Assembly: GCA_034521495.1 (NCBI GenBank)
Contig: JAXHMK010000004.1
Span: 434,001 to 498,000 of the forward strand
Length of the DNA stretch: 64,000 nt
Source: Balneolaceae bacterium
GTDB lineage: Bacteria > Bacteroidota > Rhodothermia > Balneolales > Balneolaceae
Direction: 5' to 3'
Notes under the pieces: model-generated
What the model was told of the DNA's origin: nothing
What the model saw: the letters and a program-made list of their open reading frames with translations, nothing else
Database searches by the model: none
Part shown: one piece after another, positions 8,398-27,107 of the stretch
How positions within the stretch are numbered: position 1 is the stretch's first letter
Layout of the letters: the number at the start of each line of letters is the position of its first letter
Translations under genes and position numbers: made by a program

Positions 8398-9354
8398 ATG
8401 TCCCGACTTAAAAGTTCCGAACGTCGAATGAAATTGATCCTGATGCTGCAGGAATCAAAAAAGAGACTTACTGTTGATGAACTCGCTGAAACATTTGGAG
8501 TCAGCAGGCGAACTATCTTCAGAGATTTCAATGTTTTATCGGAAATAAATGTACCCGTTACGTGGGACAAATATAGCGGGTATGGAGTCATGGACGGGTA
8601 CAAAGTCCCGCCCCTTATGTTTACCGCTCAAGAGCTGGCCACTATTATGGTTGGCCTTAATTTTGTAAAATCCCAGGTTGATAAACAGCTTGTAGATGAT
8701 GCCAAAGGAGTGGAGTTGAAAATCAAAAATACGATTCCCGATGAGCTGAAGGAATTCATGGATTCACTTAATGACAGAACCGTTGTCGATCCATTTCTTC
8801 ATTTTGGCCACGAAAAAAAAGAGGGGGGAAACTGGTACCTGATCAGCAGTGCGATTTCACAATCGAAATCTCTGGGATTTTCATACCAAAGTAAGGGTGA
8901 CAAAAAAGTGACAGATCGGATTATCGATCCGTATCTTCTCATTTTTTACCGCGACCACTGGAACGTTATTGGATTTTCTCATAAAAGAGAGGCAATTCGG
9001 AATTTTGTGCTCGACCGGATGAATGAAGTAAAAATTTTGGATCAAAAATTTGACCGAAAATCCGAAATCGACATAGAGGGCTTAATTTTTGGATCTAACG
9101 AATCTGGACAATTAATAGAGGTATTGGTACATGAATCCGCCGATCGCGCATTCAGAGCCAATCTGCCGACAAAAATATTTAAGGAAAACCCTATTTCAGC
9201 TAAAAAAATTAAGGTTAGTTTTAAATTCGAAAATTTAGACTATATCAATGAATGGCTCCTTCAATTTGGTGATAAGGTTGAGATTATATCTCCGGAAGAT
9301 TTGAAAGAAAAAAGAAAAGATATTTTGAAGGAGATGATTGCGAAAGTTACATGA
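8398..9354 (+). CDS. YafY-type transcriptional regulator with HTH and WYL domains
   Basis: A 318-residue DNA-binding regulator. The N-terminus (about 1-60) is a winged helix of the DeoR/HTH_11 type (LTVDELAETFGVSRRTIFRDF, recognition helix about 34-45). The middle and C-terminal part form a WYL domain (starting near NWYLISSAIS, with DPYLLIFYRDHWNVIGF) and a WCX extension. WYL domains sense small ligands or nucleic-acid fragments and often control DNA-repair or defence genes. It stands alone, with 216 bp of gene-free DNA before it, so its target cannot be named from context. Convergent with the kinase gene downstream. Confidence 0.88.
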   Translation: MSRLKSSERRMKLILMLQESKKRLTVDELAETFGVSRRTIFRDFNVLSEINVPVTWDKYSGYGVMDGYKVPPLMFTAQELATIMVGLNFVKSQVDKQLVDDAKGVELKIKNTIPDELKEFMDSLNDRTVVDPFLHFGHEKKEGGNWYLISSAISQSKSLGFSYQSKGDKKVTDRIIDPYLLIFYRDHWNVIGFSHKREAIRNFVLDRMNEVKILDQKFDRKSEIDIEGLIFGSNESGQLIEVLVHESADRAFRANLPTKIFKENPISAKKIKVSFKFENLDYINEWLLQFGDKVEIISPEDLKEKRKDILKEMIAKVT

Positions 9355-9390
9355 GATTCGAAATGACAGAAAAATTTATAAACGTCCATT

Positions 9391-12225
9391 TTATTGAGAA
9401 TCTTCAGCAAGTAGGTTTTTGAACTCTTCTAATTTTTCAGGTTTCGTCCACGAATCATAGAGTGTAACAAGATTTTCAATAGCTGTGTGTGTTCGGCTAT
9501 GAGTATCGCCCAGTTCTTCTGCAAGAATTTTATATCCTTCAATCAAAAGAGGTTCTGCTTCTTCGAACTTCTCCATTGCGGTAAGACACCTGCCCAATCG
9601 GCTTTTTATCAAACCGACCATCCAGTGGTTCTCGCCCGAAGAGGAGATTTGAATATCCAATGTTCTTTGAAGCAAGGGTTGAGCCTTTTCGGGTTCCCCG
9701 GTATCCAGGTGAATATGGGCAAGCCCAAGAAGCGGATAAGTAATCATGGGATGGTCATTCTCAAAATTTTGCAATAAAACATCGAGAGATTGCTCAAGAT
9801 ACTGTCGGGCCTCCGTGTATTGTTCCTGTCTGATCAGAGTCAACCCGAGGTTGTTCATCGTAAGTCCCGATTCTGAATGGGTTTCACCCAACCGGCTTTG
9901 CTGAATCTCAAGCGATTTTCTATAATAATTTTCAGAGGCTTTATAATTTTCTATTCGTCCCATCAAAATTCCCAAACTATTAAGAGTCTGTGAGATATCT
10001 GGATGCAGTGAATCAAGAACGTTTTTCTGAATATTAAGTGCTTGTTTTAAATTAACTTCTGACTCTTTGTATTCTTCAATATCAAGCAGAGCTGAGCCCA
10101 GGTGATATAAACTTTCTGCAATATCCGGATGTTGCTGATCAAAAATATTTCTTCTTATTTTCAGAGCATCTCTGTGATACTCTACAGCTTTTTCAACCTT
10201 TCCCATACGTTCACTAACACGGCCAAGATTGGTAAAGCTTGCCGCTATTCTCGGATGAGTGTCTCCAAAAAGTGTCCGATATAAATTCAGTGATTCAAGG
10301 TAATAATCGCGGGCTTCGGTGTATTCTCCCTGGCTTTCCATAAAATTACCAATATTATTGAGATCGTATGCAACTGACTCATGTGATTCGCCAAAAATTT
10401 CACGGTTCATGTCCAGCGCCTGCCGATAATATGGTTCGGCCTCATCAAACTCCCGTAGCTCTTTTAAAACGATGGCCAGGGAAGTCATTGTATTGGCAAT
10501 GGATTCGTCACTCTCTCCGTAAAGCTCGCGTTCCATTTGAAGAGCATCTCTGAGATAATTTTCTGCTTCTGAGTACTGGGCTCTATTCCAATAAAGAATT
10601 CCAAGGTTGTGGAGACTTTCGGCTATGTCATTATGGGGCGGAGTAAAATGATTTTCGCGAATCTGGTAGGCCCTGTTTAAAAGCTCATCCGCTTTTTCAT
10701 ACTCTCCCAGGTTCATGTACACACGTCCGGTAAGATCAAGCATTTGTGCCTGCACTTCCGGCTGTTCTTGTAACTGTTCGGCCTGATTAATACCACTTTC
10801 AAGAAGTTGGCGGGCAGTAACATTCTCACCCAGGGATTCGGAGGGATCACTGGCCTCAAACATACCCATCATAAATTCAGTTACCTGTTCCGCTTTCTCA
10901 GTTTCTTGTTCCGCTTGTTCCAATGCAGTTTGCGTGCGCTGGGAGTGATAGGTGATGGTTACTGCATAACCGATCAATAGAAGAATAATGACAGCAGTTG
11001 AAGCGACACCAATTTTATGGCGCTTTATAAATTTTTGGCTGCGATACAGGTATGAGTCGGGATGAGCGGAAACTGGCTTCCCCTGAAGGTAATTGTTGAT
11101 ATCAGATGCAAAGTGTCCGGCGGATTCGTACCTGCGATCAGGCTCCTTGTGCATTGCTTTGAGAACAATGATATCTAACTCTCCGCGCAACTGGCGCTGA
11201 AGCTGTTCGGGATCTGTTTTTCGAACAGAACCGATTTGCTGAGGAGTTACGGTTGAATCTTGATCAGGAATTTTGGTAATAGCTGTACTCGGTCGGGTGG
11301 GGATACTTTCACAGATAATATGTTCGATTTCACTGGGCGACCGGCCGGAAACATTGTAGGGTGTACAACCCGCAAGAAGTTCATAGAGTAAAACACCAAG
11401 CTGATAGATGTCGGAAGCCGTTGTAATGGATTCACCACGAATCTGTTCCGGGCTTGCATATGCAGGAGTCAGCGGCAGTAAACCGGTTTTTGTGACGGGC
11501 CTCGAACCTCCCAGGATTTCATCAGGTTTCAGGGCCTTGGCAATTCCGAAATCCAGCAGTTTCACGGATCCGTCATCTTCCACAAAAATGTTGGAAGGCT
11601 TGAGATCCCGGTGAACAATCAATTTTTGGTGAGCAAATTGAACGGCATTGCAAACATCTTTAAAAATCTCAAGCCGTTCTTTTACTGTAAGATGATTTTT
11701 GTCACAATATTCGTCAATGGGCAATCCTTCCACGTACTCCATGGCAAACCAGGGCTGACCGCTTTGCGTGATTCCGCCATCCATCAAGCGAGCGATGTTT
11801 TTATGAATCAGGGAAGCAAGGATTTGTCTTTCGGCCAGAAACCGCTGTTTCTGTGTATCCGAAATAAAACTGGTCCGAAGCAATTTCAGCGCTACTTGTT
11901 GATCATATTGTCCATCAGATCGTCTGGCCAGGAAGATACTTCCCATACCTCCATGCCCTATCTCTCTGATTATTTTGTATTTACCTATAACCTGATCTTT
12001 GTATGAATCTGTTTTAAACCGGGCAAACAGTGATTGCTTTAATTCCTCCGGCGATTTATCAAGAGGCCCCGGGTTTTTATGGGCGTCAAGCAGAGATTGG
12101 ACCTCTTCCAGCAATTCCCTGTCATCCCCGCAGGCTTCCTTCACAAAACTTTCCCGTTCTGATGATTCAACTTCCAGGGCATTCGAAAAGATCTGTTTGA
12201 TTTTTTGCCAGTTCTCAGTTGCCAT
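9391..12225 (-). CDS. Membrane-anchored Ser/Thr protein kinase with TPR repeats
   Basis: A 944-residue Hanks-type kinase. Residues 83-395 form the kinase domain: glycine loop IGHGGMGS (89-96), catalytic Lys114 (VALKLL), HRDLKPSN (205-212), DFG (225-227) and ASPEQ as the APE equivalent. One transmembrane helix follows (VASTAVIILLLIGYAVTI, about 403-423). The rest is about ten tetratricopeptide repeats of the Kinesin-light-chain type (repeated A..YY...L...R..G). The N-terminal 70 residues are the short ECF-partner region common to such kinases. The start is 8 bp after the sigma-factor stop, so they form one operon; the kinase probably signals to or from the sigma factor (inference). Confidence 0.93.
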   Translation of the reverse strand: MATENWQKIKQIFSNALEVESSERESFVKEACGDDRELLEEVQSLLDAHKNPGPLDKSPEELKQSLFARFKTDSYKDQVIGKYKIIREIGHGGMGSIFLARRSDGQYDQQVALKLLRTSFISDTQKQRFLAERQILASLIHKNIARLMDGGITQSGQPWFAMEYVEGLPIDEYCDKNHLTVKERLEIFKDVCNAVQFAHQKLIVHRDLKPSNIFVEDDGSVKLLDFGIAKALKPDEILGGSRPVTKTGLLPLTPAYASPEQIRGESITTASDIYQLGVLLYELLAGCTPYNVSGRSPSEIEHIICESIPTRPSTAITKIPDQDSTVTPQQIGSVRKTDPEQLQRQLRGELDIIVLKAMHKEPDRRYESAGHFASDINNYLQGKPVSAHPDSYLYRSQKFIKRHKIGVASTAVIILLLIGYAVTITYHSQRTQTALEQAEQETEKAEQVTEFMMGMFEASDPSESLGENVTARQLLESGINQAEQLQEQPEVQAQMLDLTGRVYMNLGEYEKADELLNRAYQIRENHFTPPHNDIAESLHNLGILYWNRAQYSEAENYLRDALQMERELYGESDESIANTMTSLAIVLKELREFDEAEPYYRQALDMNREIFGESHESVAYDLNNIGNFMESQGEYTEARDYYLESLNLYRTLFGDTHPRIAASFTNLGRVSERMGKVEKAVEYHRDALKIRRNIFDQQHPDIAESLYHLGSALLDIEEYKESEVNLKQALNIQKNVLDSLHPDISQTLNSLGILMGRIENYKASENYYRKSLEIQQSRLGETHSESGLTMNNLGLTLIRQEQYTEARQYLEQSLDVLLQNFENDHPMITYPLLGLAHIHLDTGEPEKAQPLLQRTLDIQISSSGENHWMVGLIKSRLGRCLTAMEKFEEAEPLLIEGYKILAEELGDTHSRTHTAIENLVTLYDSWTKPEKLEEFKNLLAEDSQ

Positions 12226-12233
12226 AATATTAA

Positions 12234-12800
12234 TTAGTTACTGTTATCAGCCAGCTCCCGATTTAACCAGGCACGCGCCATTTTCCAGTCGCGGCTGACG
12301 GTAGGCGTTGATATGCCGAGCGTTTCAGCAGTTTCCTCAATCGTTAGTCCTCCAAAGAACCGGCATTCAACCACTCGAACCTGCCTTTCATCCAATTTTT
12401 CAAGCTTTTTGAGTGCTTCATGAACAGAAAGGAGGTCATGTATATTCATTTCTGTAATGGCGTCCGCTTCTCCCAGGGTTACTCTCTGTTGCTTCCCACC
12501 TCGTTTTTGAGCCTGTTTTTTTACTGCGTAATCCACAAGAATATTTCGCATAACCTGTGATGCGATACCAAAAAAGTGAGATCGGTTTTGCCAGTCAATC
12601 CGGTTAAAGTCTACCAATTTAAGATATGCTTCGTGAACCAATGCTTTTGTGCTTAAAGTGTGGCCTGCCCGTTCACCCAAAAGACGCTGGTGAGCCATTT
12701 GCTGCATTTCATTGTAAACAAGTGGCATTAGCTTATCCAGAGCTTGGTTTTCGCCAGATGCATGGGCCTCAAGAAGTTTTGTAATTCTATTTTTCTCCAT
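12234..12800 (-). CDS. ECF-subfamily RNA polymerase sigma factor (TIGR02999-like)
   Basis: A 188-residue extracytoplasmic-function sigma factor. Region 2 is visible at about 50-105 (HEAYLKLVDFNRIDWQNRSH, then FFGIASQVMRNILVDYA) and region 4 at about 130-180 (VVECRFFGGLTIEETAETLG, then TPTVSRDWKMARAWL). This subgroup is known to sit next to Ser/Thr kinases in Bacteroidota, Acidobacteria and Planctomycetes and is thought to be controlled by phosphorylation rather than an anti-sigma factor. It is first in the two-gene operon with the kinase-TPR protein and divergent from the cupin-to-methyltransferase operon, its most likely target by context. Confidence 0.92.
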   Translation of the reverse strand: MEKNRITKLLEAHASGENQALDKLMPLVYNEMQQMAHQRLLGERAGHTLSTKALVHEAYLKLVDFNRIDWQNRSHFFGIASQVMRNILVDYAVKKQAQKRGGKQQRVTLGEADAITEMNIHDLLSVHEALKKLEKLDERQVRVVECRFFGGLTIEETAETLGISTPTVSRDWKMARAWLNRELADNSN

Positions 12801-12969
12801 TCACCTCTCTGTGTTTTGTGACCTTTTTTTAATTCTCTCACGTGGTAAAAAATTAAATGATAAAGAGTTATCGTTTTTTCGGCTTTTATAAGTGAGAGGA
12901 TGTTTTAACTAAATCATTAAAAATCATTAACACTATATAATTAAACAAACAAAACAGACTATTACCATT
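12801..12969. promoter_or_regulatory. Divergent control region between the ECF-kinase operon and the cupin operon
   Basis: 169 bp of AT-rich, gene-free DNA separating two divergent operons, so both promoters should lie here. TGTGACCTTTTTTTAATTC (about 12815-12833) and the A/T-rich run before 12970 are visible, but I cannot assign -35/-10 boxes with confidence. Confidence 0.4.
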
Positions 12970-13422
12970 ATGAACCAAATATTTAAAACAACTATAAATC
13001 TGAGTATAATCATTTTTCTAATTCCTACAGCAATTCTGGCTCAAAGTGAAAGTCCTGAGAAGGCTTTTACGACAGAAAAAGAGTCCGCGAATCTTGAATG
13101 GGGACCGTGTCCTGAATTTATGCCGGAAAGTTGCAGTATTTCTGTTCTTCAGGGAGATCCATCTCAGCCGAATACAGATATCTTTTTCAAAATGCAGGGG
13201 AATACCAAAGTTCCGAATCACTGGCACAACTCAGCCGAACGGATGGTTCTCATAGCAGGAGAAATGACGGTAGATTATGAAGGACAATCGCCGGTTACAA
13301 TAACCACTGGAGAGTATGCATATGGCCCACCGGAATTGCCACATACTGCTTCTTGCGAATCGAGTGAGCCATGTGTGCTTTTCATTGCATTTAACGAACC
13401 TGTAGATGCTTTTGAAAAATAA
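12970..13422 (+). CDS. Secreted cupin-domain protein
   Basis: A 150-residue protein with a Sec signal peptide (residues 1-24, ending ILAQ) and a single cupin barrel: N-x-W-H motif PNHWHNSAERMVLIAGEMTV (about 80-99) and the second motif PPELPHTASC (about 118-127). His residues in both motifs would bind a metal. Similar small cupins act as metal-binding sensors or dioxygenases in the periplasm. Four cysteines (positions 48, 55, 128, 133 approximately) could form disulfides. First gene of a seven-gene plus-strand operon divergent from the ECF sigma factor. Confidence 0.85.
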   Translation: MNQIFKTTINLSIIIFLIPTAILAQSESPEKAFTTEKESANLEWGPCPEFMPESCSISVLQGDPSQPNTDIFFKMQGNTKVPNHWHNSAERMVLIAGEMTVDYEGQSPVTITTGEYAYGPPELPHTASCESSEPCVLFIAFNEPVDAFEK

Positions 13423-13456
13423 CTATAAGTGATTTAAATACAGCTATTTAGAAATC

Positions 13457-13729
13457 ATGAAAAAATATATTATTGAACGGGAAATCCCCGGAGTGGAAAA
13501 GCTTTCAGAACGTGACACAAAAGCAGCCGCATTACAATCAAACCGGGCCCTCGCCGAATTGGGTCCGGATATTCAGTGGCAGCACAGTTATATCAGCAAA
13601 GACAGAACTCACTGTGTGTACATCGCCAAAGATGAAAACATTATCAGAAAACATGCGGAGAAAATAGGCACTCCGATTATATCCGTCACAGAAGTAAAAA
13701 GCATGTGGGACCCGACAACTTCAGATTGA
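13457..13729 (+). CDS. DUF4242 protein (SCO4226-like putative metal-binding ferredoxin-fold protein)
   Basis: A 90-residue cytoplasmic protein with the DUF4242 pattern: an N-terminal strand YIIEREIPGV, a helix rich in Ala, WQHSYISKDRTHCVYIAKDE (about 41-60), and IRKHAEKIGTPIISVTEV at the end. The family has an alpha-beta ferredoxin fold, and one Streptomyces member (SCO4226) binds nickel. His and Cys residues in the central segment are kept. Starts 34 bp after the cupin gene and shares its operon; a role with the cupin in metal or stress response is only inference. Confidence 0.8.
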   Translation: MKKYIIEREIPGVEKLSERDTKAAALQSNRALAELGPDIQWQHSYISKDRTHCVYIAKDENIIRKHAEKIGTPIISVTEVKSMWDPTTSD

Positions 13730-13784
13730 TAAATGATGAGATCAAAAAAGAATCTTATTCCATTTAACCAAAAACACCGATGCC

Positions 13785-14234
13785 ATGACTACCCAAAAAT
13801 TAAAAAAGATCAACACAGTAATTTTCTCAATTTTCTTAATTCCGGTTACCATTTGGAGTCAGCCACATTCAGACATAACAGTACAGGGGGAGGTATCAGG
13901 ATTTGACTGCGCGGTGGTTGAAGTTCTATGTCCCACAACCCATCGAGGTGCCGATTATACGAACGGTATATTTACCGAAGAAAAGGAGTTCTTCTTTGTG
14001 GTAAATATTCCACAAAGCTTTCTGCGCCAATATTTTCGTGAAACGTTTGTGGTAGAAGGCGCCATGTATGAGCCATATACCAAAGCTGTAGAACCAGAAA
14101 CCATTCAGTTGATCGAAAATGGTGAACGGCGTCTTGTTTATGAATCCGGCTACTTTATTGATGGAGAAGGCCGACGCGCAACATTCCAGGATGGTGTGGT
14201 GCAAAATGGTGAATGGACTGTAGAGGAAGAATAA
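13785..14234 (+). CDS. Secreted protein of unknown function
   Basis: A 149-residue protein that I do not recognise. It has a hydrophobic N-terminal signal (VIFSIFLIPVTIWSQ, about 12-26), then a beta-rich domain beginning ITVQGEVSGFDCAVVEVLCP with two Cys (about 40 and 47) and a second repeat-like stretch rich in Gly/Asp near the end (GYFIDGEGRRATFQDGVV). The start is ATG at 13785, 55 bp after DUF4242 in the same operon. Predicted periplasmic or exported; shared expression with a cupin and a TPR protein suggests an envelope role. Confidence 0.7.
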   Translation: MTTQKLKKINTVIFSIFLIPVTIWSQPHSDITVQGEVSGFDCAVVEVLCPTTHRGADYTNGIFTEEKEFFFVVNIPQSFLRQYFRETFVVEGAMYEPYTKAVEPETIQLIENGERRLVYESGYFIDGEGRRATFQDGVVQNGEWTVEEE

Positions 14235-14284
14235 TATCACTCTATAAATAACAGAAATAGATAATCTTAAAAAAAGAGAGAGTT

Positions 14285-15919
14285 ATGAGTAATTATAAGC
14301 ATCTAATTATTAGCATTATCATATTGATATCATTGATTATATCCCACAGGTTAAGTGCACAAGAACATATGCACGAGGAATTTCCTGTTGGAGAGGATAC
14401 CCCAATTGGAGAGGTGAATTTTGAAGCCAATTGCAGTGCGGAGGTTCAGGATGATGTGAATCGGGCTTTGGGGATGCTGCATCACATGATGTACGAAACA
14501 TCCCGGAGCTATTTCGAAGCCATTTCAGAAACCGATCCCAATTGTGCGATGGCTTACTGGGGAGTTGCAACTACTCTGTTTCAACCTCTTTGGGGAACCC
14601 GTCCAAGTGAAGAAGATATTCAGCAAGGCTGGCAAACCATCAACAAAGCGATAGATGTGGCCGAATCGGAACGCGAAAAACTGCTGATTCAATCAACTGC
14701 CGGTTTTTTTCGTGAACCGGAAACGGCCGATTTTCAAACCCGGATCCGGCGATGGACGGAGGGAATGGAGGATGTATATGAATCTTATCCCGATGATCTG
14801 GACATTGCAGCATTTTATGCACTTACACGGCTTACAATTGCACAGTTTGCAGAGAATTCTTCCCCGCTTCTTGATGAAGCTGAAACGATTCTTCGTGAGG
14901 TTTACGAACAGGAACCCACACATCCGGGTGCCATTCATTACACAATACATGCAACCGATATCGACGGACGTGCAGAAAATGCCCTGGATATCGTTGAAGC
15001 ATACGGTGAAATTGCCCCGGACGTTCCCCATGCACTCCATATGCCCACGCATATCTATGTTCGGCTGGGTGACTGGCCAAATGTGATTGACTGGAATCTG
15101 AGGTCAGCCGAAGCGGCTCTGAATCATCCGGTAAATGGAGCCGAATCCCACCATTACCTCCATGCAATGGACTATTTGGCGTATGCCTACCTGCAACAAG
15201 GTAAAGACGACATGGCTGAAAAAGTATTCAAAGAAGTGTTGAATAAAGAGAAGCACCAGGCGTCATTTGTAAGCGCATTTCACTTATCTGGAATTCCCGC
15301 ACGCTTGGCCGTGGAACAAAGAGACTGGGAGCGGGCTACAGAACTGGAGCCGCGAACTCCGGCTTATCTGCCCTGGGATGCATCTCCCTGGCCTGAAGGA
15401 ATGACGTGGTATGCGAAAGGACTGGGGGCCGTGCACACCGGCGATCTTCACTCTGCAAAAAAATCGGAACAGAAACTCCGTGAACTACGCGACCGGGCAA
15501 GTGAAAGTGGATCCGATAATATGGCCAATTATATAGAAATTGAGCGCCGGGTTTTAGAAGGCTGGATTGCACATGAAGAGGGCGATGCTGACCGGGCGGT
15601 TGAATTGATGAAATCAGCAGCCGATCTGGAAGAAACCGTTGAAAAGCATCCGGTTACGCCGGGAGCGTTGCAACCGCCATACGAAGCTCTTGGTGACCTG
15701 CTCCTGGAACTGGATCGTCCGACCGAAGCACTGAATGCGTATGAGGCCTCTGATGACATCTGGCCGGGCCGAATGAATACTCTTCTGGGTGCTGCCGTTT
15801 CAGCCAGGGTGATTGGTGAACATCAGAAAGCCAGAAGCCACATTGCAAAATTGTTGCAAAGTAGCAGAATACAGGAAATCTCATCAAACACTGAATTCAT
15901 TGGTGAAGTGGATAGATGA
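14285..15919 (+). CDS. Periplasmic TPR-repeat protein
   Basis: A 544-residue protein with a signal peptide (hydrophobic 8-21, cleavage after SAQ) and several tetratricopeptide repeats (for example MAYWGVATTLFQPLW near 81, HYLHAMDYLAYAYLQQGKDD near 293, and two more near 440-500). A His-rich stretch HPGAIHYTIHATD (about 220-232) and HMPTHIYVRLGDWPNVI (about 257-273) are typical of a conserved TPR family found in Bacteroidota and Proteobacteria whose biochemical role is not known to me. It is preceded by a purine-rich AAAAAAAGAGAGAG leader that may serve as ribosome binding site. Fourth gene of the operon. Confidence 0.85.
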   Translation: MSNYKHLIISIIILISLIISHRLSAQEHMHEEFPVGEDTPIGEVNFEANCSAEVQDDVNRALGMLHHMMYETSRSYFEAISETDPNCAMAYWGVATTLFQPLWGTRPSEEDIQQGWQTINKAIDVAESEREKLLIQSTAGFFREPETADFQTRIRRWTEGMEDVYESYPDDLDIAAFYALTRLTIAQFAENSSPLLDEAETILREVYEQEPTHPGAIHYTIHATDIDGRAENALDIVEAYGEIAPDVPHALHMPTHIYVRLGDWPNVIDWNLRSAEAALNHPVNGAESHHYLHAMDYLAYAYLQQGKDDMAEKVFKEVLNKEKHQASFVSAFHLSGIPARLAVEQRDWERATELEPRTPAYLPWDASPWPEGMTWYAKGLGAVHTGDLHSAKKSEQKLRELRDRASESGSDNMANYIEIERRVLEGWIAHEEGDADRAVELMKSAADLEETVEKHPVTPGALQPPYEALGDLLLELDRPTEALNAYEASDDIWPGRMNTLLGAAVSARVIGEHQKARSHIAKLLQSSRIQEISSNTEFIGEVDR

Positions 15920-15958
15920 CAAAGAAATAATCAAAAAATCAAACGAGGTAATTTTACA

Positions 15959-16693
15959 ATGGGACGAATACTCTCTTTTATCTACGGCATTGTAGCTTAT
16001 GTTATTTTTTTAGGATCCTTTCTCTATGCCATCGCATTTGTTGGCGACTTTTGGGTTCCCAAAACGATCAATACGGGAACAGACGCTTCTTCGTTGGGAA
16101 CTGCTTTACTGGTAAATGCCGGATTGCTTGGGCTGTTTGCCGTTCAGCACTCGGTTATGGCACGGCAGGGATTTAAGAAATGGTGGACCCGTATCATTCC
16201 AAAACAGATAGAACGCAGCACCTACGTGCTCATCAGCAGTTTGCTTTTGATATTGCTTTTCTGGCAATGGCGTCCACTGCCGGAGGTAATCTGGAGTGTA
16301 GAATCCGGTTTGGGATATTATCTGTTGATGATACTGTTTTGGATTGGATGGGCAATTGTATTGCTTTCCACATTCATGATCAACCACTTCGACCTGTTCG
16401 GCCTGCGGCAAGTTTACCTGCATTTTAAAAAGGAAGAAATCACGCCGGTGGAATTTAAAGAACCCGGAATGTATAAGTATATGAGGCATCCGCTGATGTT
16501 TGGATTCCTGGTTGCTTTTTGGGCCGCTCCAACCATGACTCTCGGTCATCTTGCATTTGCGATTGCTACAACAGGGTATATTTTTGTGGGAATCTGGTTT
16601 GAAGAGAAAGATTTGATTCGATTTCACGGAGAAAAATATAAGGAATACAGGAAGCGCGTAAGAATGCTTCTACCGATTCCAAAAAACAAGTAA
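15959..16693 (+). CDS. mddA: MddA/NnrU-like membrane methyltransferase (methanethiol S-methyltransferase family)
   Basis: A 244-residue integral membrane protein with about six transmembrane helices. [14 protein letters not shown] (about 61-74) and [15 protein letters not shown] (about 82-96) match the NnrU/MddA branch. The C-terminal active-site region of the isoprenylcysteine carboxyl methyltransferase superfamily is present: [14 protein letters not shown] (about 171-184) with the conserved R-H-P, then [20 protein letters not shown]. MddA methylates methanethiol to dimethyl sulfide using SAM. The assignment to that exact reaction is by family resemblance; other thiols or protein substrates are possible. 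Followed 9 bp later by an OsmC-family gene and then another SAM methyltransferase. Confidence 0.75.
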
Positions 16694-16702
16694 GAATGGC
16701 TT

Positions 16703-17242
16703 ATGACGAATACCAAAACCATTAAAAAAGCTTTTGAACGAATTCGAACGCTTGTAAAAAAGAAACCTGAAATCGGTCAGAAAACAGTTAGCACCAACGT
16801 GCGGCTGAAAGAGGGAACCACCTGCGAAGTTGTACACAAAGACTGGACTTTCAAGGTTGATATTGGGCAATCAGAGGGAGGCAATAATGCAGGCCCCGGT
16901 CCGGGTTTGCTTCAGCGAGGAGCGCTGGGCGGTTGTCTTGCAATCGGATATGTGCAGCAAGCGGCGGTTATGGGTGTGCCAATCAACCATATTGAAGTAG
17001 AAATTGAAGCCGATAAGGATTTACAGGGCAGATTCGGGATTAACAACTCATCGCCCGGAAGTTTGCAGATTCGATATAATATTAAAATTGAAAGCCCGGC
17101 TTCGGAAGAAGATATCCATAAGGTTGTTGAAGAAGCCGACCGGTTTAGTCCTGTTTTGGATGATTTTCGAAGGGCTGTTCCCGTTGAAAGAAATTTGGAA
17201 ATTCGTAAAACCGAACAAAAGAGTAAGGAGGAACACCAATGA
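16703..17242 (+). CDS. OsmC-family protein lacking the second catalytic cysteine
   Basis: A 179-residue OsmC/Ohr-fold protein. The core has the first strand pair VSTNVRLKEGTTCEV, the helix with the peroxidatic-type Cys (LQRGALGGCLAIGYVQQAA, Cys about 76), and the C-terminal sheet. In peroxide-reducing OsmC/Ohr a second Cys follows near ...CP...; here the matching place reads ADRFSPVLDDF, with no Cys. It is thus probably an OsmC-like protein with a different thiol chemistry, not a canonical organic hydroperoxide reductase. It overlaps the next gene by 4 bp (ATGA), so the two are translationally coupled. Confidence 0.85.
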   Translation: MTNTKTIKKAFERIRTLVKKKPEIGQKTVSTNVRLKEGTTCEVVHKDWTFKVDIGQSEGGNNAGPGPGLLQRGALGGCLAIGYVQQAAVMGVPINHIEVEIEADKDLQGRFGINNSSPGSLQIRYNIKIESPASEEDIHKVVEEADRFSPVLDDFRRAVPVERNLEIRKTEQKSKEEHQ

Positions 17243-18054
17243 AACCAGCACTTCAACGACGTGTTCAGCGATATGGTTGGGATAAGGCTTCTGCAGTTTA
17301 TGAGGATTCCTGGAAAACCCAGTTAAAACCTGCACAGAACAAACTACTGGAGATGGCTGATCTGAAACCCGGTGAAACGGCTCTGGAAACAGCCTGTGGC
17401 ACAGGCTTGGTCACATTTCGAATTGCAGAGGCTGTGGGGCCCTCAGGCGAGATTGTAGCCACGGATCTTTCGGAGGAAATGATAAACCTGGCCCAAAAAA
17501 CTTCGGAAGAGAGAGGAATAGAGAACGTAACCTATAAAAGAATGGATGCGGAAAAGCTGGATTTAGAAGACAACCGGTTCGATGTTGCGATCAATGCGCT
17601 CGGATTGATGTACATACCCGACCCGGTTCAATCTTTAAAAGAGATGCACAGGGTTTTAAAACCTCACGGACAGGCCCTGATTGCCATTTGGGGAGAGCGA
17701 AAAAACTGTGGTTGGGCCGAAATTTTTCCAATCGTTGACAAACGAGTGGAATCGGATGTTTGTCCGTTATTCTTTCAACAAGGAACCGGAAATACAATTG
17801 AGATTTCAATGTCAGAAGCTGGTTTTAAAGAGATTAAGACAGAACGGTTTTCTGCAGATTTGTACTATCCTTCAGATGAATTAGCACTCTCGGCGGCTTT
17901 TGCGGGCGGACCTGTGGCTCTTGCTTATAAAAAATTCGATAAAAAAACCCGTGAGGAAGCTCATCAGGAATATCTTGACTCTATTGCTGTATATAAGAGT
18001 GACAAAGGCTACAATATTCCCGGAGAATTTGTAGTGGCTGCAGGAGTAAAATAA
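17239..18054 (+). CDS. Class I SAM-dependent methyltransferase (UbiE/Coq5-like fold)
   Basis: A 271-residue soluble methyltransferase. Motif I is ALETACGTGLVTFRIA (about 49-64), the SAM-ribose acidic residue is in VATDLSEEMI (about 73-82), motif II/post II reads FDVAINALGLMYIPDP (about 114-129) and motif III VLKPHGQALIAIW (about 140-152). The substrate is unknown. Overlap with the OsmC-like gene and the presence of a second methyltransferase in the operon suggest joint processing of a small sulfur compound (inference). A strong terminator follows. Confidence 0.85.
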   Translation: MKPALQRRVQRYGWDKASAVYEDSWKTQLKPAQNKLLEMADLKPGETALETACGTGLVTFRIAEAVGPSGEIVATDLSEEMINLAQKTSEERGIENVTYKRMDAEKLDLEDNRFDVAINALGLMYIPDPVQSLKEMHRVLKPHGQALIAIWGERKNCGWAEIFPIVDKRVESDVCPLFFQQGTGNTIEISMSEAGFKEIKTERFSADLYYPSDELALSAAFAGGPVALAYKKFDKKTREEAHQEYLDSIAVYKSDKGYNIPGEFVVAAGVK

Positions 18055-18064
18055 CGTGAGTATA

Positions 18065-18098
18065 AAAAAAAGGCTCTCAAAAAATGAGAGCCTTTTTA
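18065..18098. terminator. Bidirectional rho-independent terminator between the methyltransferase operon and gyrA
   Basis: Perfect 12-bp stem AAAAGGCTCTCA / TGAGAGCCTTTT with a 5-nt A loop, A-rich on the left and T-rich on the right. It lies between two convergent genes (stops at 18054 and 18120) and so can end both transcripts. Confidence 0.9.
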
Positions 18099-18139
18099 AG
18101 TTTATATGCGAGTAATAAATCAGCTTACGACGGGTGGAT

Positions 18140-27107
<8,968 letters not shown>

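Follow-up and report, generated by a model that had tools for sequence, protein, structure and literature searches.

What does an extracytoplasmic function (ECF) sigma factor control when its gene is paired with that of a receptor kinase and faces away from a tight row of genes for exported proteins and methyltransferases? This arrangement occurs in a stretch of 64,000 nucleotides from a Balneolaceae bacterium (GenBank assembly GCA_034521495.1, contig JAXHMK010000004.1, positions 434,001 to 498,000; hereafter called the window), whose host genome comprises 4.57 Mb. An earlier note, made from the letters of the window alone, had described a sigma–kinase pair back to back with a seven-gene operon. 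All nine open reading frames (ORFs) were present at the coordinates it gave, their families were confirmed, and the grouping recurs in relatives. By comparing genomes, we show that the module is conserved, that a promoter signature is limited to genomes bearing the sigma factor, and that the kinase, with a topology predicted from hydropathy, retains its active-site residues. We consider it very probable that kinase, sigma factor, and promoter form a regulatory circuit, and likely that the explanation holds as a whole, from kinase through sigma factor and promoter to a detoxification operon; for general detoxification as the role of the operon, the chances are about even.

The exported tetratricopeptide repeat (TPR) protein of the operon was searched for in 58 relatives, and 195 genomes were searched for its UbiE-like methyltransferase and for the sigma factor, after which the DNA around nearly all matches was collected and its genes were clustered. 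All sigma factor matches with at least 64% identity were examined, so the set was not chosen by its neighbors. Among the 28 sigma orthologues counted (at least 60% identity and at least 1 kb of upstream DNA), 25 have a gene for the TPR protein, the OsmC-like protein, or the methyltransferase lying divergently within 8 kb, and the kinase gene is on the sigma strand in 23 of the 28 loci, some of the others ending at a contig edge. The earlier note had staked its proposal on homologues occurring near an ECF–kinase pair, and on this count it survives. Sigma factor and methyltransferase also co-occur across the 195 genomes (29/23/13/130; Fisher p = 4e-11, uncorrected for relatedness). The core of the module is the sigma factor, the kinase, the TPR protein, the OsmC-like protein, and the methyltransferase. 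Variable members include the cupin, the methanethiol S-methyltransferase MddA, a second methyltransferase of about 218 residues, a BBE-type flavin adenine dinucleotide (FAD) oxidase, a short-chain dehydrogenase/reductase (SDR), and a SnoaL-like protein, as well as metallo-beta-lactamase (MBL)-fold proteins, extra cupins, DUF1326 proteins, and alpha/beta hydrolases, and the DUF4242 gene often stands alone beyond the kinase gene. To judge from these sequences, the grouping is not due to chance, because it recurs in related genomes together with a common promoter signature. In a Wenzhouxiangellaceae genome, which belongs to a different phylum, a sigma–kinase pair precedes a TPR protein homologue with 54% identity. 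A single scan with the TPR protein through a collection of named genomes gave four loci, and a plasmid collection held no close homologue of the methyltransferase or of the 149-residue protein.

The interval 12801–12969, where the earlier note had proposed to look for the sigma factor target, indeed contains the promoter signature, a motif first read from the intergenic sequences of sigma–operon loci as TGATA-N17-CGGCTT. In the window, TGATA (12858–12862) and CGGCTT (12880–12885) are separated by a 17-bp spacer that ends in a T run, and the site is oriented toward the operon. As a regular expression, the motif matched 21 of 31 upstream regions, against a mean of 0.36 in shuffled sequences and a single match on the reverse strand, and the spacing was the same in 20 of the 21. 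A matrix of 42 positions, applied with a threshold of 17 bits, yielded 84 matches in 1.2 Mb (the loci plus the window) and none in the reversed sequences. About 30 of these are training sites in sigma–operon intergenic regions or their neighbors, and the remainder lie mostly 30 to 200 bp before genes for DUF4242, OsmC, cupins, methyltransferases, and other module members, on the correct strand. Under a matrix built from the other loci only, the window site scored 36.5 bits, compared with 13.4 for the next best site in the 64 kb and 19.8 for the best score in 60 simulated 64-kb sequences.

Within its own genome, the regulon appears to consist of the operon at 12970–18054 only, because the window site alone lies within one mismatch of the consensus and the looser matches, allowing up to three mismatches, equal the control (18 versus 20). 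The second best site of that genome, with two mismatches (contig C9, 625865), was taken as a chance occurrence; the genes there are long, housekeeping-like, and on the opposite strand. By the same kind of count, the regulon of genome G012 is much expanded, with 17 occurrences of the pattern versus 1 in the control. There the pattern precedes genes for alpha/beta hydrolases, cupins, methyltransferases, and large proteins of unassigned family (G012:C91, C200, C204, and C205; L173, L167, and L245–L247). In genome G069, a SARP-like regulator with BTAD, AAA, and TPR domains lies downstream of a promoter-pattern site (L252:4304-7495), which suggests a regulatory cascade in that genome.

The sigma gene and the operon start 169 bp apart on opposite strands, and the kinase gene begins 8 bp downstream of the sigma gene. 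The intergenic gaps in the operon are 34, 55, 50, 39, 9, and −4 bp, the last being the 4 bp shared by the OsmC-like and methyltransferase genes. With distances of −4 to 55 bp between them and the hairpin before gyrA, the seven genes fit a single transcription unit, and we infer that they are co-transcribed. The terminator with which the earlier note closed the operon corresponds to a 13-pair hairpin, directly beyond which lies the convergent gyrA gene; it is by far the longest of eight hairpins in the stretch, where hairpins show no overall enrichment (8.8 expected from shuffling). A generic scan of the stretch for sigma-70 promoters and terminators remained at chance level overall, and an Rfam scan of 9300–18300 gave no match at the gathering thresholds. 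It could be argued that sigma factor and operon are unregulated neighbors and that the housekeeping sigma factor runs the operon, as consensus sigma-70-like sites do occur near 12982, at an overall frequency no higher than chance. We regard this as very improbable in view of the divergent placement kept in 25 of 28 loci and of an ECF-type motif that is tied to the presence of the sigma factor.

The kinase (Pkinase, E = 6e-44, with at least seven TPR stretches) comprises an N-terminal extension (residues 1–80), a kinase domain (approximately 81–388), a transmembrane helix (approximately 404–428), and a TPR domain (approximately 470–920). Hydropathy places the kinase domain in the cytoplasm and the TPR domain outside, with the one transmembrane helix between them. 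Residues K114, E132, H205-R206-D207, K209, N212, and D225-F226-G227 are invariant in 22 aligned orthologues. The intact active site, single transmembrane helix, and C-terminal TPR domain are those of a PknS-type kinase; PknS itself, which phosphorylates EcfK, has an 83-residue N-terminal extension, a kinase domain, a transmembrane helix, and periplasmic TPRs (PMC13147305). The TPR part is hardly conserved among the orthologues, which suggests that these domains may sense varied signals. Of the earlier proposal that a stress is sensed through the kinase TPR domain, what stands is the ECF–kinase pair beside a probable target operon and a TPR domain outside the membrane; the sensing itself is what we infer.

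ECF43 sigma factors lack the DAED motif, and phosphorylation supplies the charge (PMC8999054), an activation model described in PMC13147305 and PMC8999054. The window sigma factor belongs to PF07638 (E = 2.4e-56) and scores above the TIGR02999 cut-off of 126 bits, memberships that substituted for the ECF43 group model. Its region 2.2 reads S50-T51-K52-A53 (STKA) in place of the DAED of canonical ECFs, so that the negatively charged motif is absent, and its gene adjoins that of a Hanks-type kinase. At the position of linker residue T108, 32 of 36 sigma relatives have Thr or Ser, and for EcfK one of two residues, the region 2.2 Thr or a linker Thr, is enough (PMC13147305). The third motif position is reported to be Thr in 88% of ECF43 members and thus not universally; because of this, and because the linker Thr substitutes in EcfK, we call the window sigma factor ECF43-like. 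The kinase–sigma pair is of the ECF43-like kind, comparable to EcfP/PknT and EcfK/PknS, with a previously undescribed output.

Several points weigh against this reading of the circuit. The third position of the region 2.2 motif, Thr in 27 of 36 sigma relatives, is Lys52 in the window, and activation must therefore use another residue (T51 or T108) or work otherwise. Because either Thr suffices in EcfK, T108 or T51 would be our guess for the site used, T108 being the putative counterpart of EcfK T106. Three sigma orthologues (L175, L178, and L185) stand without a divergent core, with a promoter site nearby in all three. The matrix describes the very intergenic regions that supplied its training sites, and the independent support consists of the outside sites and the left-out window. 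Finally, no copy of the motif occurs at the sigma gene itself, so no autoregulation is visible.

Two observations concern related sigma genes. A further TIGR02999-type sigma gene of the window genome is split over two overlapping frames (L037/L038, G000:C16:48848-49406) and looks like either a broken paralogue or an error of the assembly. Five related loci have a small gene between those for the sigma factor and the kinase (L140:9003-9374, L174:1347-1712, L177:4698-5069, L179:6688-6927, and L180:1372-1770), and its product resembles, by look only, four-helix bundles of the 23S rRNA intervening-sequence type.

We propose that the membrane kinase would sense an extracytoplasmic signal via its TPR domain and phosphorylate the partner sigma factor, which in its unmodified state would be inactive because DAED, the motif that contacts core polymerase, has given way to a motif with no charge or a positive one. 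Once activated, the sigma factor would direct RNA polymerase to TGATA-N17-CGGCTT and switch on the operon. Its predicted periplasmic products are the cupin, the 149-residue protein, and the TPR solenoid, and its predicted cytoplasmic or membrane enzymes are the DUF4242 protein, MddA, the OsmC-like protein, and the S-adenosylmethionine (SAM)-dependent methyltransferase; together they probably trap or chemically neutralize a reactive small molecule.

The closest described systems are EcfK/PknS of Xanthomonas citri and EcfP/PknT of Vibrio parahaemolyticus, in which the sigma gene likewise adjoins that of a Hanks-type receptor kinase (PMC13147305, PMC8999054). EcfK and EcfP have an altered DAED, as does the window sigma factor, and the domain plan of PknS, including the extension of about 80 residues, recurs in the window kinase. 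However, their outputs are a type VI secretion system or polymyxin resistance, whereas the output here is an operon of exported-protein, OsmC, and methyltransferase genes, and the window sigma factor, unlike EcfK and EcfP, has a gene divergent from its target and a Lys at the phospho-Thr position. The earlier note knew of no description of this gene set as a unit, and none was found in the open-licence literature. Outputs are known for few kinase-activated ECF sigma factors. For this pair, the sequence reveals a conserved target operon as well as a precise promoter signature, which makes the pathway directly testable, and the Lys that naturally takes the place of Thr at the activating site allows the generality of the phospho-threonine model to be probed. 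Together, the exported TPR protein, the OsmC-like protein, and the methyltransferase make up an undescribed set that recurs in Balneolales-like bacteria and may, in some species, be tied to dimethylsulfide production.

Features of the locus, with coordinates in the window
Feature	Position	Strand	Basis
Hanks-type Ser/Thr kinase, 944 aa	9391-12225	-	Pfam/NCBIfam, hydropathy, 22-orthologue alignment
ECF sigma factor, ECF43-like, 188 aa	12234-12800	-	TIGR02999 209 bits; region 2.2 alignment
Predicted sigma target promoter	12858-12885	+	Matrix trained without the window
Exported cupin protein	12970-13422	+	Cupin_2/Cupin_7
DUF4242/SCO4226-like protein	13457-13729	+	PF14026 E = 9e-20
Exported 149-aa protein, family unassigned	13785-14234	+	No Pfam match
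Exported TPR solenoid protein, 544 aa, core member	14285-15919	+	Alignment; structure model
MddA, methanethiol S-methyltransferase, accessory member	15959-16693	+	NF045656 363 bits versus cut-off 270
OsmC-like protein, core member	16703-17242	+	PF02566; alignments
UbiE-like class I SAM-dependent methyltransferase, core member	17239-18054	+	Family and PDB searches
Terminator-like hairpin, 13 pairs, T tail on both strands	18067-18097	+	Hairpin scan

The three proteins that the earlier note took to be exported bear this out, with N-terminal hydrophobic stretches in the cupin and TPR proteins and a weaker one in the 149-residue protein. Residues H84, H86, E90, H125, C47, C55, C129, and C135 of the cupin protein are invariant among 18 relatives. 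The 149-residue protein occurs in 2 of 244 genomes (the window's and G030), both times in a divergent sigma operon of this kind; a weak PDB sequence match to FosB (E = 0.017) was disbelieved. The TPR protein was modeled (pLDDT 90) as an all-helical TPR-like solenoid, and because a fold search with this model returned general TPR/alpha-solenoid folds only (query TM score about 0.4 or less), no enzyme function was inferred. Its invariant His residues (66, 213, 218, 222, 249, 252, 256, 290, 293, and 455) perhaps bind a metal or ligand. PDB sequence searches gave generic methyltransferases, a distant OsmC protein, and a weak cupin match for the operon proteins and nothing beyond weak TPR solenoids for the TPR protein. 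In the OsmC-like protein, C41 and C78 are invariant, and the second OsmC Cys (that of CPV) is Ser in nearly all relatives, so the catalytic Cys pair of OsmC/Ohr peroxidases is incomplete; with the pair's positions presumed from general knowledge of OsmC proteins, we take C78 to be the first catalytic-type Cys.

The earlier label "MddA/NnrU-like" was right as to MddA and too vague, because NF045656 assigns the protein at equivalog level. Its family-level identity is secure from this match, the formation of dimethylsulfide from methanethiol is its predicted activity, and it is the sole copy above the cut-off in its own genome. This raises the alternative that the operon detoxifies sulfide or methanethiol, with the UbiE-like enzyme making methanethiol, MddA making dimethylsulfide, OsmC handling oxidants, and the kinase sensing sulfide or thiol stress. 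MddH and MddM2 are UbiE-family Mdd methyltransferases, and mddM genes are induced by H2S, methanethiol, and H2O2 (PMC12904073), which fits; so does the recurrence of MddA in the module, mainly in genus g7. Yet MddA, with 12 genes in 11 loci among those examined, occurs beside the sigma factor only in the window and G030, and most versions of the module do without it while keeping the TPR protein, OsmC, and methyltransferase; MddA is thus an accessory here, in a larger regulated operon. Moreover, the nearest solved relatives of the core methyltransferase are generic SAM methyltransferases. We therefore think this alternative rather unlikely, and would equally hesitate to see sulfide or thiol methylation as the main job in the window strain; of the methylation of reactive or volatile sulfur compounds put forward in the earlier note, the MddA assignment holds, and the core lies elsewhere. 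Because other versions carry FAD oxidases, SDRs, SnoaL-like and MBL-fold proteins, cupins, and alpha/beta hydrolases, the preferred reading points to a broader detoxification, and the operon as a whole is best described as serving detoxification or chemical stress.

A metal-stress operon would make sense of the invariant His residues of the TPR protein; in this reading, nickel, copper, or another metal would be bound or handled by that His-rich protein together with the DUF4242 protein, the cupin, and the OsmC-like protein. SCO4226 of Streptomyces, which has its Pfam family in common with the window DUF4242 protein, binds nickel through D43, S46, and H76 and is nickel-induced (PMC4186839), although the likeness is at the family level only and the gene setting differs. 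On Ilyobacter polytropus pILYOP02, a TPR homologue (39% identity) adjoins a DUF4242 gene near multicopper oxidases. Nevertheless, no metal transporter or known metallochaperone was recognized in the module versions seen, and the accessory genes are mostly for methyltransferases, oxidases, and hydrolases, which leaves a metal-stress role improbable. The Ilyobacter pair (L240), which also lies near hydroxylamine reductase and rubredoxins, differs from the window in that no sigma–kinase or OsmC–methyltransferase pair is annotated within 6 kb. The TPR–DUF4242 pairing, found here in Fusobacteriota, is far wider than the order of the window.

The sigma–kinase pair is not the only regulator found with these effector genes. 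In ten loci from genomes without a sigma orthologue at the search threshold, the same genes follow a gene for the protein c9, which has an N-terminal hydrophobic stretch, TPRs, one transmembrane helix, and a C-terminal helix-turn-helix (HTH) domain related to sigma region 4. No matrix match occurs in the sigma-less c9 loci (L056, L058, L142–L147, L187, and L188). Among 52 methyltransferase-bearing genomes, c9 next to the effector genes and a sigma factor in the genome are mutually exclusive with the exception of G111 (1/10/28/13; Fisher p = 0.0006, uncorrected for relatedness). In G111 (L136:6004-12500), the sigma–kinase pair and c9 occur in one locus, with a sigma-type promoter before a cupin gene and then c9; this is possibly an intermediate of regulator exchange. 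On a tree of OsmC proteins, at least five changes of the c9 label are required along branches with good support, so the regulators have probably been exchanged more than once; the window protein itself has a long branch and a poor placement in this tree. In a joint reading, which is tentative and on balance doubtful, a single set of effectors (the exported TPR protein, the OsmC-like protein, and the UbiE-like methyltransferase) would have repeatedly swapped between a kinase-activated ECF sigma factor and the membrane TPR-HTH protein c9, and some sigma factors, that of the window included, would be activated without the canonical phospho-Thr. An extracytoplasmic TPR domain is common to the two regulators, so the signal may be the effector TPR protein itself or a ligand of it.

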